This document shows, piece after piece, positions 942-5,208 of a DNA stretch of 64,000 nt (position 1 is the stretch's first letter; every line of letters begins with the position of its first letter). The notes below the pieces were generated by a model. That model searched no databases. It was not told where the DNA came from and was given only the letters and a program-made list of their open reading frames with translations. This stretch comes from Beijerinckiaceae bacterium (lineage in GTDB: Bacteria; Pseudomonadota; Alphaproteobacteria; Rhizobiales; Beijerinckiaceae): NCBI GenBank assembly GCA_004564215.1, contig CP024846.1:1984001-2048000 (forward strand). The letters run 5' to 3'. The translations under genes were made by a program, and so were the position numbers.

Positions 942-949
942 CCGTTGTT
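942..949 (+). repeat. Target-site duplication, left copy
   Basis: CCGTTGTT abuts the left terminal repeat and is identical to 3057-3064. Confidence 0.9.
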
Positions 950-975
950 GGCGATATTATACTTGACGTAGCACA
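950..975 (+). repeat. Left terminal inverted repeat of the IS1595 element
   Basis: 26 bp, perfectly inverted relative to 3031-3056. It contains TATTATAC followed by TTGACG, so it carries promoter-like hexamers. Confidence 0.9.
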
Positions 976-995
976 AATCGCAAGGGGGTGCTAAG

Positions 996-1883
996 ATGAG
1001 CGCCGACGCCGAGGGATTCGCGCCCGGTAGGCTGTGGAGCCTATGGGATATAATGATTCATTTCGATGTTCGATTGCTTATCTTACGAATGCGCCACATT
1101 GAGGATTTCGAAGAATTACTCTCGACTGGAGCGCCAATCGGAGGTTCCCCACCGGTTGATGGCTCTGCGCTAACGATGCGGTTGACGCCTTCAAACTCCC
1201 CAAACGAGCGGCTTAGCGCGGACGGCCGAAAGTGGCTATGGGCGCACATAGGCCCGCTTCAAGTCGAGCTAAGTCCACTCGCTTTGACCGTGGCTCAGAC
1301 GGAAGTTCAGCACATATGGAACAATGCCCATATTTGGACAGCTAAAGAGATGGCCGGTCGGTTAAAAGAATTTCGACTGAAGTTAACGAATGAATTGAAT
1401 GATCGGTTTTTTGTCTACTTAACTCCAGAGGAGGCGCATTATTTTCGTGAAACGCAGCCGTTTGGTAAGGAAACAATCGGCGCATTCCATTCATCGGAAG
1501 TCGATATTGGCGAAGCGTCAAAGTGTTTCGCAATTGGGCGAAATACCGCATGCGTTTTTCATTGCATGAGGATTCTTGAAACTGGCCTTCGGGTTATGGC
1601 GGCTGATGTGGGTATAGCGTTTGACGTGCAAAACTGGCAAAATGTGATCGATCAAATTGAGTCAGAAGTGAAGAAGATTGGGAAAACACTTCCGTCCGGA
1701 GCTACTAAAAGTCAAAGATTGCAACAATTGTCTGAAGCCGCTGTGCAGTTCACTTATTTCAAAGATGCTTGGCGCAACCATGTCTCGCACAATCGATCTC
1801 GTTATGATGCTAATCAGGCGCTAAGCATATTTAATCATACCAAGGAATTTATGGGCGCTCTGGCCAAATGGCTCCAAGAGTAA
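996..1883 (+). CDS. HEPN-like passenger protein of the IS element
   Basis: A 295-residue soluble protein with no signal peptide or membrane segment. ATG at 996 is preceded by AGGGGG at 7-base spacing and begins 20 bp inside the left terminal repeat. The C-terminal third resembles HEPN-type helical bundles: a segment CVFHCMRILETGL, then AWRNHVSHNR near the C-terminus with the R-x4-H signature (R260, H265) that forms the RNase active site in catalytic HEPN proteins. I recognise related 'hypothetical' proteins with the same FKDAWRNHVSH ending but know no proven function. Its stop codon (1881-1883) directly abuts the stop of the convergent small gene. Composition is unlike the surrounding genome, so it arrived with the element. 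Toxin, defence or regulatory activity is inference. Confidence 0.7.
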   Translation: MSADAEGFAPGRLWSLWDIMIHFDVRLLILRMRHIEDFEELLSTGAPIGGSPPVDGSALTMRLTPSNSPNERLSADGRKWLWAHIGPLQVELSPLALTVAQTEVQHIWNNAHIWTAKEMAGRLKEFRLKLTNELNDRFFVYLTPEEAHYFRETQPFGKETIGAFHSSEVDIGEASKCFAIGRNTACVFHCMRILETGLRVMAADVGIAFDVQNWQNVIDQIESEVKKIGKTLPSGATKSQRLQQLSEAAVQFTYFKDAWRNHVSHNRSRYDANQALSIFNHTKEFMGALAKWLQE

Positions 1884-2063
1884 CTAGCGGTTAGGCATCT
1901 TTGATCGTGGGGGCACTATTTTCGCAAAGGCATTCTCGAATGGCTGACCAACCTCTTCAACGCCAAGCTTTCGAGCGGTCTCTATAAACCGCTCGGATTG
2001 GGCTTTGTCAGTGAACTTAGGTTTCGGCTTTGCCGTTGGTTTTGGTTTTGCGGCTTTTGCCAT
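1884..2063 (-). CDS. Small conserved 59-residue protein downstream of IS1595 transposase
   Basis: ATG at 2063 lies 11 bases after the transposase stop on the same strand; the frame ends with TAG at 1884. The product starts MAKAAKPKPTAKPKPKF, a Lys/Pro-rich N-terminus, and continues with an amphipathic stretch (SERFIETARKLGVEE) and a basic tail. Similar short proteins sit beside ISXO2-like IS1595 transposases in other genomes (from memory). Being co-directional and nearly contiguous, it is probably co-transcribed with the transposase; a regulatory, DNA-binding or antitoxin role is possible but unproven. Confidence 0.65.
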   Translation of the reverse strand: MAKAAKPKPTAKPKPKFTDKAQSERFIETARKLGVEEVGQPFENAFAKIVPPRSKMPNR

Positions 2064-2074
2064 AGGGGCGCTCG

Positions 2075-2992
2075 CTAATGAGTCGTTCGGTAGGTGAGCC
2101 TCTTACCGACAACGCCTTTGAGAGCGCGATCCGCGCGCTCTACATCGTCACAGCCAAGACGAACGCGATTGCTGTAGCGGAAGTCGAATTCCGCAAGATA
2201 GCGATGCAAATGGCGCTCACCACAATGCTGATATACGCCTTTCATGCCCCGTTTGAAAATGGAGAAAAAGCCTTCAACAGTGTTTGTAGTCACGGTGCCG
2301 CGCACATATTCATCGGCGCTGTGATTGACAGTTTCATGGCTTGCGAATTCTCCCCCGACCTCGCGATAACAATTGGCTTCATCAGTCATCAACGCAGTTT
2401 CGCGAACGACATTCGCGCGCACAATCGGTGCAATGTCCGCAACGCGAGTGCTATCGATATGAAAACTGCGGGAACTGCCGTTGCGCTGAAGAAGGGTTAA
2501 GACTGCGTTCTTATGACCGGCACCTGCCTTGCGCTTGGGCTGGCCTTCAACGCGGCCGATAAAGGTTTCGTCGACTTCCACAATCTCGCCAGCGCCGCCC
2601 ATTGGCTCAAGCCCGACGGTTTGCATGGCAGTGCGGATGCGGTGCGACATAAACCATGCGGTTTTGAGAGTTACGCCAAGGGTACGGTGAAGCTGGTTAG
2701 AGATAATGCCCTTCTTGCTGGAGGTCATGAGGTGCATCGCCTGCAACCAAAGGCGCAGCGGAACATGGCTGGACTCAAAGATGGTTCCAACCTTCACGGT
2801 AAAGGGCTTGCGGCACTCATTGCACTGGCGGACGCCCAGACGGGTAGACTTGCCAGCCATCAATTTCATGCGCGACGCATCGGCATTTCCACAATGAGGG
2901 CAAGTTGGCCCATTCGGCCAAACCCGAGCCTCAACATAGGCATAGGCGGCGCGCTCACCGTGGAAATGTTTGTCCGAAAGGACGGATGACAT
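2075..2992 (-). CDS. IS1595-family (ISXO2-like) transposase
   Basis: A 305-residue DDE-type transposase. An N-terminal zinc ribbon is visible (CPHCGNAD ... CNECRK, residues ~32-62), followed by a helical region and the catalytic core: VDETFIG (first Asp), TDEANCYRE (second Asp), then TTNTVEGFFSIFKRGMKGVYQH, typical of the ISXO2 group. Length is normal and there is no frameshift, so it should be active. GAGGAG precedes the ATG at 8-base spacing. The family moves by cut-and-paste or replicative transposition with 8-bp duplications, matching the flanks here. Confidence 0.95.
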   Translation of the reverse strand: MSSVLSDKHFHGERAAYAYVEARVWPNGPTCPHCGNADASRMKLMAGKSTRLGVRQCNECRKPFTVKVGTIFESSHVPLRLWLQAMHLMTSSKKGIISNQLHRTLGVTLKTAWFMSHRIRTAMQTVGLEPMGGAGEIVEVDETFIGRVEGQPKRKAGAGHKNAVLTLLQRNGSSRSFHIDSTRVADIAPIVRANVVRETALMTDEANCYREVGGEFASHETVNHSADEYVRGTVTTNTVEGFFSIFKRGMKGVYQHCGERHLHRYLAEFDFRYSNRVRLGCDDVERADRALKGVVGKRLTYRTTH

Positions 2993-3014
2993 GGCTGACT
3001 CCTCAATGGAATCA

Positions 3015-3043
3015 AACTACTCCAATCGCTGTGCTACGTCAAG
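3015..3043 (-). promoter_or_regulatory. Predicted transposase promoter at right IS end
   Basis: On the minus strand TTGACG (3038-3043, inside the terminal repeat) is followed after exactly 17 bases by TAGTTT (3015-3020), giving sigma70-type spacing just upstream of the transposase start at 2992. Confidence 0.5.
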
Positions 3044-3056
3044 TATAATATCGCCC
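3031..3056 (-). repeat. Right terminal inverted repeat of the IS1595 element
   Basis: 26 bp, perfectly inverted relative to 950-975. Its TTGACG (3038-3043, minus strand) is the likely -35 element for the transposase gene. Confidence 0.9.
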
Positions 3057-3064
3057 CGTTGTTT
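3057..3064 (+). repeat. Target-site duplication, right copy
   Basis: CCGTTGTT abuts the right terminal repeat and is identical to 942-949. Confidence 0.9.
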
Positions 3065-3104: not shown

Positions 3105-3719
3105 TCAAATCAGATAAATCCGGTCCGGCAGCGCGTCCTCGCCTTCGCCCTTGGGCGGAAAATGTTCGGCCAGAACCCGGCCGCATTTCTCGACCGCGAT
3201 CACGAAGCCTTCTGCGATTGCCCCTTCGCTGATATGGCCGCGCAAAGCATCGACCGCATCCTGCCAAACCGTTGGATCGACTTTGGACGCGATGCCCTCG
3301 TCGGCGACTATCCGCACGTAATGTTCGGCCAGCGAAACGAAGATCAGGACGGCCGCACGATTCTGTTTGCGCGCCATGCCACGGATCATGAATTGCTCCG
3401 TCGCGGCGCGATGCGCCTCGGCCCGGCGAATGCGGCGCGGGACGAGAATTCGGCCCAACGGCGTTTCGGTCAGGACTAAAAAGAGCACCACGAAAATGAC
3501 AATCTGCGCCAAAAAGATTCCCCGCACCGAAAGGTTTGTGACGGCGAGCAGAATCCAGGGAGCGATCAAGGCGAGGAGGGCCGACCAGGCCGTTGCGTAG
3601 GTTCGTGAATCGGACGACGAGCGCGCCAGCACGCAGACGATTTCGCCCGCGGTTCCGGCCTCGGCAGCTTTGATCGCGGCGCCGATGCGACTTTGGTCTT
3701 CCGCCGACAAATTCGCCAT
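3105..3719 (-). CDS. TPM-domain membrane protein (second TPM gene)
   Basis: About 204 residues. The N-terminal part (NLSAEDQSRIGAAIKAAEAGTAGEIVCVLAR) is a TPM-type fold start, then two hydrophobic segments (~residues 40-85), then a cytosolic or periplasmic part with FVSLAEHYVRIVADEGI and VDPTVWQDAV. TPM proteins are poorly understood envelope proteins; plant relatives act in photosystem II repair. ATG at 3719 overlaps the TGA of the upstream TPM gene (TGATG), implying translational coupling; GTG/TTG codons just upstream are alternatives. It is the last gene of the lemA operon. Confidence 0.8.
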   Translation of the reverse strand: MANLSAEDQSRIGAAIKAAEAGTAGEIVCVLARSSSDSRTYATAWSALLALIAPWILLAVTNLSVRGIFLAQIVIFVVLFLVLTETPLGRILVPRRIRRAEAHRAATEQFMIRGMARKQNRAAVLIFVSLAEHYVRIVADEGIASKVDPTVWQDAVDALRGHISEGAIAEGFVIAVEKCGRVLAEHFPPKGEGEDALPDRIYLI

Positions 3720-4543
3720 CACCAACTCCCTGAGGCTCCGCCACCGCCCGACGACCCGCCGCCGCCGGACCAGCCGCCCCCGGAACTGCCCCCTCCGGAA
3801 CTTCCGCCGGAGCTCATGAGCATCCCGAGCAAGAAGGAGAAAACATCGCCGCGAATCCCGCGCGGCAGAAGCATGAATATCAAAAGCAGAAAGAGTCCAA
3901 TCGCAATCAACGGAGCGATGCCGTCCGTCGTCGACTCCTGGTCATTGACGATGCGTAGGTCCGGGCGCTTTCCCCATTCGGCGGAATCCGTCGTCAAAAC
4001 CGTGATGATGTCATCGACGCCGCGCTCAAGGCCGCCGCCATAATCGCCCGTTTTGAAACGGGGGGTCATCGCATTGGTGATGATGATCTTGGACAGCGCG
4101 TCGGTCAGCGTGCCTTCGAGGCCGTAGCCGACCTCGATCCGCACCTTGTGCTGTTGCGGCGCAACCAGAACGAGCACACCATTGTTCTTGTCTTTCTCGC
4201 CGAGGCCCCAGGCGCGAAACAGAGCGTTGGCGTAGGGCTCGATCTCGTCGCCTTCGAGCGATGTCACGGTAGCGACGACAAGCTGGATGCCGGACTTGGC
4301 TTCGAGCGCGGCGAGCTTTTGGGTAAGCGTCTCGGCCACGGCTTCCGGAATGACATTGGCCTGATCGACCACCCGACCCGTCAGCGGCGGAAAATTATAG
4401 GCGAGACCCGCGCCGACGAAGGCGAGCACCAAGAGCAGCGCCGCGATAAGGCTTGTTGCGGCCACGACAGGGAGCGCATGGCCGGGACCCAACCGGCCGC
4501 GCCGCCAAACCCGAGCCAGATCGTAAGCCCCCGCCGGGGGCAT
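3719..4543 (-). CDS. TPM-domain protein, YgcG-like, with Gly/Ser-rich tail
   Basis: 274 residues. An N-terminal hydrophobic segment (VVAATSLIAALLLVLAFVGA) acts as signal or anchor, followed by the TPM domain: FPPLTGRVVDQANVIPEA ... GIQLVVATV ... NNGVLVLVAPQQHKVRIEVGYGLEG ... IITNAMTPRFKTGDY. A C-terminal membrane helix (PLIAIGLFLLLIFMLLP) precedes a nearly pure Gly/Ser tail ending GASGSW, as in YgcG-type proteins. ATG at 4543, with CGGAG upstream and 17 bases after lemA, is preferred over a longer frame starting inside lemA. Pairing with LemA is widespread; the function is not established. Confidence 0.85.
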   Translation of the reverse strand: MPPAGAYDLARVWRRGRLGPGHALPVVAATSLIAALLLVLAFVGAGLAYNFPPLTGRVVDQANVIPEAVAETLTQKLAALEAKSGIQLVVATVTSLEGDEIEPYANALFRAWGLGEKDKNNGVLVLVAPQQHKVRIEVGYGLEGTLTDALSKIIITNAMTPRFKTGDYGGGLERGVDDIITVLTTDSAEWGKRPDLRIVNDQESTTDGIAPLIAIGLFLLLIFMLLPRGIRGDVFSFLLGMLMSSGGSSGGGSSGGGWSGGGGSSGGGGASGSW

Positions 4544-4560
4544 GCCCGGAAACTCCGCCG

Positions 4561-5208
4561 TCAAAATTTGACTTGCGGCGGCGTCTGCGCCGATTCGCTG
4601 GCGGCGAACTCCGCCATGGGCTTGTTGGCACGAAACAACGTCGCCGCCCAAAGCAGGGTCGGGAACGTCTTGAGGCTCAGATTATAAGCGCGGACCGCTT
4701 CGATATAGTCGCGCCGGGCGACGGAAATTCTATTTTCCGTGCCTTCGAGCTGCGACTGCAACGCGAGGAAATTCTGATTTGATTTCAAGTCGGGATAATT
4801 TTCGCTGACCGCAAGCAAACGGCCGAGCGCGCCGGACAATTGGGATTGGGCCTGCTGGAACTGCTGGACCTTTTCCGGATCGGTCAATTGCGAGGCGTCG
4901 ATCTTGACCGAAGTCGCCTTGGCCCGCGCTTCGATCACCGAGGTCAACACATCCTTTTCCTGCTTGGCATAGCCCTGCACCGTGGCCACCAGATTGGGAA
5001 TGAGGTCGGCACGCCGTTGATATTGATTTTGGACATCGGCCCATTTGGCCTTGGCCTGCTCCTCGAGCGTCGGAATCGTATTATAGCCGCAGCCGGAAAC
5101 GCAGACGCCCAAGATCGCCAGGACGAAAACAGCGCGCAAGCTCGCAAACATCCGATTCGCGCGAGACAGTGGCAGCGTATCTTGAGATGCATTGATCGAA
5201 AAATTCAT
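4561..5208 (-). CDS. lemA: LemA family lipoprotein
   Basis: 215 residues. The N-terminus carries a signal with lipobox (GVCVSGCGYN), so the mature protein is probably a lipoprotein. The LemA helical core follows: YNTIPTLEEQAKAKWADVQNQYQRRADLIPNLV, a long coiled region, then SQLEGTENRISVARRDYIEAVRAYNLSLKTFP. Length and motifs fit the family. ATG at 5208 is chosen because GGAGGG stands 9 bases upstream. First gene of a three-gene operon with two TPM-domain proteins; the LemA-TPM pairing suggests a shared envelope role, mechanism unknown. Confidence 0.9.
   Translation of the reverse strand: MNFSINASQDTLPLSRANRMFASLRAVFVLAILGVCVSGCGYNTIPTLEEQAKAKWADVQNQYQRRADLIPNLVATVQGYAKQEKDVLTSVIEARAKATSVKIDASQLTDPEKVQQFQQAQSQLSGALGRLLAVSENYPDLKSNQNFLALQSQLEGTENRISVARRDYIEAVRAYNLSLKTFPTLLWAATLFRANKPMAEFAASESAQTPPQVKF

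Follow-up and report, generated by a model that had tools for sequence, protein, structure and literature searches.

A complete IS1595-family insertion sequence that carries a HEPN-type passenger gene

Positions 950-3055 of the window, the 64,000-nucleotide stretch of DNA analysed here, constitute an intact IS1595-family element of 2106 bp that is almost certainly a transporter insertion sequence (IS) with a HEPN-type passenger gene. We consider it rather likely that the whole is to be read as a complete IS1595 transporter IS with swappable conflict cargo, in which the HEPN protein is a probable RNase that benefits the host or the element. The features of the locus are as follows.

942-949, no strand: left copy of the 8-bp target duplication, CCGTTGTT (sequence)
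950-975, plus strand: left terminal inverted repeat, 26 bp (26/26 with 3030-3055)
996-1883, plus strand: passenger gene encoding a HEPN-type protein of 295 aa, P0001 (open reading frame; family evidence)
1476-1880, plus strand: residues 161-295, HEPN-fold domain of the predicted model (model)
1773-1790, plus strand: RNHVSH, the Rx4H motif (R260 and H265, invariant in 18/18)
1884-2063, minus strand: small accessory gene of 59 aa ('P2' family), its 3′ end facing that of the HEPN gene (open reading frame; family profile)
2075-2992, minus strand: IS1595-family transposase of 305 aa, zinc ribbon and ISXO2-like DDE domain (Pfam/NCBIfam)
3030-3055, minus strand: right terminal inverted repeat, 26 bp (26/26 with 950-975)
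3056-3063, no strand: right copy of the target duplication, CCGTTGTT (sequence)

The left terminal inverted repeat (TIR) reads GGCGATATTATACTTGACGTAGCACA and is complementary to the right one at 26 of 26 positions, a match that the same finder reached in none of 300 block-shuffles (best shuffle, 15). The target site duplication (TSD) is identical on both flanks (8/8). An 8-bp duplication is typical of the IS1595 family, in which movement is catalysed by the transposase. The initial annotation had read two intact ends, 26-bp inverted repeats and identical flanks from the sequence, and all three are confirmed, although its end at 3064 and its length of 2107 bp were one base too long. Its assignment to the IS1595 family is likewise upheld, as the transposase scores above the curated cut-offs of PF12762 (ISXO2-like DDE domain; 121 bits, cut-off 27), NF033547 (189.9 bits, cut-off 75) and, through its N-terminal zinc ribbon, PF12760 (43.8 bits, cut-off 25.4). 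The G+C content of the element is lower than that of the window (0.513 versus 0.589), as expected of an arrival, and that of the HEPN gene is 0.482. The 3.33-Mb genome contains one copy of the element. Scans for sigma-70 promoters and terminators gave matches at chance level only, and an Rfam scan returned nothing at gathering scores.

A TPM-domain gene pair (window 3105-4651) adjoins the insertion and is also found in 13 other genomes of the genus. Inspection of the DNA beside this pair (up to 1.5 kb in each genome, 0.86 kb in one) shows no HEPN or transposase match in any of the 13. The gene on the left flank was not found beside the pair in those genomes, and the exact empty site was therefore not seen. 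The case named in advance as contrary, a HEPN gene at the same locus in relatives that lack the transposase and the repeats, was looked for and did not turn up.

The passenger protein matches no family in Pfam, NCBIfam or PADLOC, with no hit at E ≤ 1 in Pfam or PADLOC. Three of 18 members of its family, which are roughly 260-340 aa long, match the Pfam HEPN family PF05168 at E ≤ 0.1 (best 9e-5), and when the predicted model is compared with structures, HEPN proteins occupy rows 1, 2, 3 and 5 of VIA-align. A Foldseek search of the model against the PDB and viral models returned nothing significant, and a profile search of PDB sequences gave a best E of 0.015, which is not convincing. The Rx4H motif is present in all 18 aligned members, with R260 and H265 invariant at a mean column identity of 28%; the residue that follows the arginine is Asn in 16 members, Asp in L009 and Ala in L036 (L numbers denote loci). 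The part of the superfamily survey available to us describes an Rx4-6H motif with a mostly polar residue after the Arg and proposes an RNase role in conflict (PMC3710099). The window protein shares this motif, as RNHVSH, and probably uses the RNxxxH site to cleave RNA; that it serves as a conflict RNase is a reading we lean towards slightly. As a guess, sensing or self-restraint could be the task of the N-terminal helical half (about residues 1-140). PADLOC, run over the 18 family members, gave one match to QatB (0.0046) and one to KwaA (0.04), and no homologue was matched in phage records.

The association with IS1595-type transposases recurs. From 46 distinct C-termini we dropped L003 and L057 (fragments of the proteins of the window and of L021) and the second L024 piece, and an IS1595-type transposase has its midpoint within 5 kb of 21 of the 43 distinct HEPN homologues that are left, a count that leaves out L008 (transposase IS1-like by eye) and takes in L107 (transposase only 27-28% identical). 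Among loci unselected by transposase, such a transposase is present at 3 of 7 from the family search and 8 of 11 from the order search, the window being in both. Fifteen HEPN-carrying IS1595 elements have both ends and 8/8 duplications: those of the window, L004, L006, L021, L022, L073, L074, L076, L077, L079, L081, L105, L106, L110 and L114, with L022, L076 and L114 counted with a one-base offset of one end. Fourteen belong to the class of the window (the record of L004 is labelled Proteobacteria) and one, L006, is from an Acidobacteriaceae MAG (Acidobacteriota) whose transposase is 37% identical to that of the window. Comparison of the 15 flank sets by blastn gave one match only, 29 bp between L105 and L106; the proposed check for copies with the same layout at different flanks was made, and such copies exist in other bacteria. 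That a host gene came to lie beside an IS by chance is ruled out by the bracketing TIRs and TSDs here and in the 14 further elements. L109 has both ends without a matching duplication, and no pair of ends is shown in L005, L007, L082, L107 and L108, of which L007 and L108 lie at contig ends.

HEPN genes of this family also occur in other settings. At L009 (2962-3896, Zixibacteria MAG) the HEPN gene is the sole gene of a 935-bp unit whose ends are IS1595-like (19/26; 0/300 shuffles) and whose TSD is TTGTATTA, probably a transposase-free cassette. At L008 (3238-6982, Ignavibacteria MAG) it lies in 3745 bp between repeats matching at 23/26 with TSD ACGTTATT (0/300 shuffles); the transposase inside those repeats is IS1-like, named by eye. 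None of 11 HEPN loci tested has ends that bracket the gene (exact TSD, at least 16/26). One IS1595-like end (17/24) lies beside the HEPN gene of L020, and at L113 (3395-5208), treated as outside elements, the gene adjoins a 30-aa piece of an IS1595 transposase and an ORF like the small family P3 described below, possibly an element remnant. Given the L020 end and the two L113 features, some of the 'outside' loci may be remnants.

The occurrence of family members outside elements, and the breakage of some copies (in two frames in L079 and L072, in two separated pieces in L110 and L024), would suit neutral hitch-hiking, in which a bystander gene was caught between the repeats and confers no benefit. 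Three of the 15 elements with both ends and duplications are damaged: L079 in its HEPN gene, L074 in its transposase, which is in two frames, and L110 in both genes, each in separated pieces. We nevertheless regard hitch-hiking as unlikely, because the association is repeated and the Rx4H residues are invariant in so divergent a family.

To define the layout of the element, delimiting was tried at 58 loci, 18 seeded by HEPN and 40 by transposase (picked among the 98 transposases). Elements at 33 loci (10 HEPN-seeded, 23 transposase-seeded) were complete, with a TIR of at least 17/24 and a TSD of at least 7/8, and they measure 1.96-4.3 kb. The P2 family is found in 20 of the 33, on the transposase strand in all 20, and 11 of these elements do not contain this HEPN. 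The second small family, P3, is found in 9 of the 33, on the strand opposite the transposase in 9/9; no element has both and four have neither, some hits in these counts being the family seeds. A distal ORF of at least 85 aa converges on P2 in all 18 P2 elements that have one (two have none); these ORFs were picked by length, and a few of the shortest may fail to be genuine genes. Layout variants are seen in L175, L188, L191 and L201, in which opposite-strand cargo also lies between the transposase and P2. Relatives of the transposase, mostly from Alphaproteobacteria, occur in 39 plasmid records, 30 of them Pseudosulfitobacter. A P2 profile match is present in all four annotated plasmid loci examined and this HEPN in none of the four; the P2 protein of the window (P0002) gave no match to plasmids by tblastn. 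On Methylobacterium oryzae pMOC1 the order is transposase, a 288-aa gene, VapC, a small gene and then a convergent gene. The fixed layout that the initial annotation ascribed to the HEPN and short genes holds, with the correction that the short gene, P2, tracks the transposase group and not HEPN.

In all 8 HEPN elements measured, the HEPN and P2 genes meet at their 3′ ends, with an overlap of 0-68 nt, and the available portion of PMC7157771 reports that TnSod9 has a HEPN toxin paired with an antitoxin. Both observations would fit a toxin-antitoxin pair with the 59-aa P2 as antitoxin. This pairing is very unlikely, and as the main reading it is ruled out by the P2 genes without HEPN, in elements and plasmid loci alike, and by the HEPN loci without P2 (0 of 16 loci treated as outside elements have P2 within 1.2 kb). 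Moreover, the two genes are convergent and do not form one operon, so that P2 is not the adjacent same-operon partner of a type II HEPN-MNT system. The pattern GS[RHYF]A[RK]G, which we take to be MNT-like, is absent from 352 neighbouring ORFs of 16 loci.

The similarities of HEPN and transposase are uncorrelated (Mantel r = 0.006, p = 0.44, 17 pairs; second set, r = 0.06, p = 0.32, 13 pairs), and HEPN therefore behaves as exchangeable cargo; HEPN-transposase co-evolution is not supported, as there is no overall correlation. The nearest transposase, that of L022 (75%), has as its companion a HEPN whose C-terminal domain is only 31% identical, and in Acidobacteriaceae the HEPNs reach 43-45% identity alongside transposases at 37-38%; L005 and L006, mutual nearest for both proteins, are a counter-case. 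On a HEPN tree of 38 rows, with L107 and L113 labelled outside and 11 of 35 inner branches open, the element label needs 8 changes, 6 of them forced by well-supported (starred) branches, against a shuffled mean of 13; the label is clustered, yet it was gained or lost several times. This HEPN lies inside the ends and is absent from other elements of the group, accompanying at least 9 of 98 distinct transposases (E ≤ 1e-80, family and class sets; a lower bound). A HEPN that regulates transposition as a working part of the element, for example by damping transposase mRNA, could draw on the tail overlap and convergent orientation for RNA-level control, but the count of 9 in 98, a lower bound, and the missing correlation make such a role highly doubtful.

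The preferred reading of a transporter IS with swappable conflict cargo can be put as a working model. The transposase would move everything between the repeats. The transposase and P2 share a strand, and in some elements a toxin-antitoxin-like pair separates the two; beyond P2 an opposite-strand gene, here that for HEPN, converges on P2. Cargo would be swapped between elements, and HEPN is probably retained for an advantage that it gives to cell or element in conflict, be it phage infection, competing elements or addiction.

The HEPN-type passenger reported earlier beside the transposase is upheld, with the correction that it is one cargo among many. Pfam was run on 40 hand-chosen cargo ORFs among 75 of at least 85 aa, and 21 of the 40 have no match at E ≤ 0.01. 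Cargo on the transposase strand before P2 includes a HigB-like toxin with an HTH protein (L077), SocA/Panacea (L021), PIN (L176, L196, L208) and DUF433 with PIN_10 (L207); on the opposite strand beyond P2 are FRG (L178), an N6_N4 methylase (L196) and an ion channel (L187), and elsewhere in the elements DUF3800 (L175, L188, L191), a D12 methylase (L201) and HNH_5 (L204). PADLOC matched 7 of 10 cargo proteins, a set picked since most looked defence-like. L201 (4350-8125, reverse complement; TIR 19/24, TSD 7/8) encodes PD-Lambda-5 A (1e-167) and B (7e-119), and the convergent cargo of L178 (4026-7410, reverse complement; TIR 23/24, TSD 8/8) is an FRG-domain PDC-S15 gene (4e-101). When PADLOC was run on the longest cargo ORF of each of the 23 complete elements seeded by transposase, at least 3 of 23 had a match among the 25 listed of 104 families, a raw count without a control set. 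A conflict theme is visible among the cargo of the group, as judged from hand-chosen ORFs. Cargo ORFs of L177, L195, L199 and L203 bear Rx4H-like motifs (by eye) and have no Pfam match at E ≤ 0.01; they are possibly further HEPN-like passengers.

The IS1595 family and its 'transporter IS' members were reportedly set out by Siguier, Gagnevin and Chandler in 2009. The accessible text of PMC3129680 uses the name transporter IS for insertion sequences with passenger genes and cites the 2009 IS1595 paper. Passenger-carrying members of the family are known, as the initial annotation stated. The element shares with them, so far as that text goes, the transposase family, the TIRs, the 8-bp duplication and passengers unrelated to transposition; it differs in the HEPN passenger, the layout of P2 and convergent cargo, and the conflict-type cargo. 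No IS1595 element with a HEPN passenger is described in the literature searched (titles and abstract starts, with ISfinder and the 2009 founding paper outside its scope), and so far as these searches go, three features are new: a lone HEPN gene that recurs as a passenger of IS1595 elements, the arrangement with P2 or P3, and conflict cargo in so compact a form. Tn3-family transposons, in the portion seen of PMC7157771, likewise acquire RNase-type toxins repeatedly within toxin-antitoxin passengers, including one HEPN-MNT pair in TnSod9; their transposase is a different one of about 1,000 aa, whereas here a single HEPN gene has no MNT partner. Tn7-like transposons, as excerpted from PMC8649781, also have cargo with defence and toxin genes decoupled from the transposition core (HEPN is listed in 37), but their median is 14-29 kb versus 1.96-4.3 kb for the complete elements here. 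HEPN genes are recorded in integron cassettes in the consulted section of PMC3710099; in contrast to the HEPN proteins there, integron-borne ones included, the window protein lacks a Pfam match and its family sits in IS elements.

If the reading holds, insertion sequences of 2-4 kb, which annotation can readily reduce to a transposase and nothing else, act as vehicles that bring one or a few defence or toxin genes from one bacterium into another, unrelated one. Because exact boundaries (TIR and TSD) make the cargo unambiguous, the unknown genes inside amount to a small set of candidate conflict systems that can be tested. More tentatively, and short of an even chance in our judgement, the group may be a general minimal conflict-cargo transposon with a transposase, P2 or P3, an optional toxin-antitoxin bay and a swappable effector bay, in which HEPN would act as a so far undescribed RNase against phages or elements, and other unnamed cargo genes would be candidates for new defence systems.

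The same genome holds two further IS1595-type loci. A second, more distant element of 4.1 kb (L026:4299-8398; C1:1564798-1568897; TIR 23/26, TSD TTTAAAAA) carries an N6 methylase (type IIG restriction-modification by PADLOC) and a specificity subunit, and a third IS1595-type transposase (L027:2901-5605) adjoins a DNA methylase of 581 aa whose C-terminus is Mrr-like.
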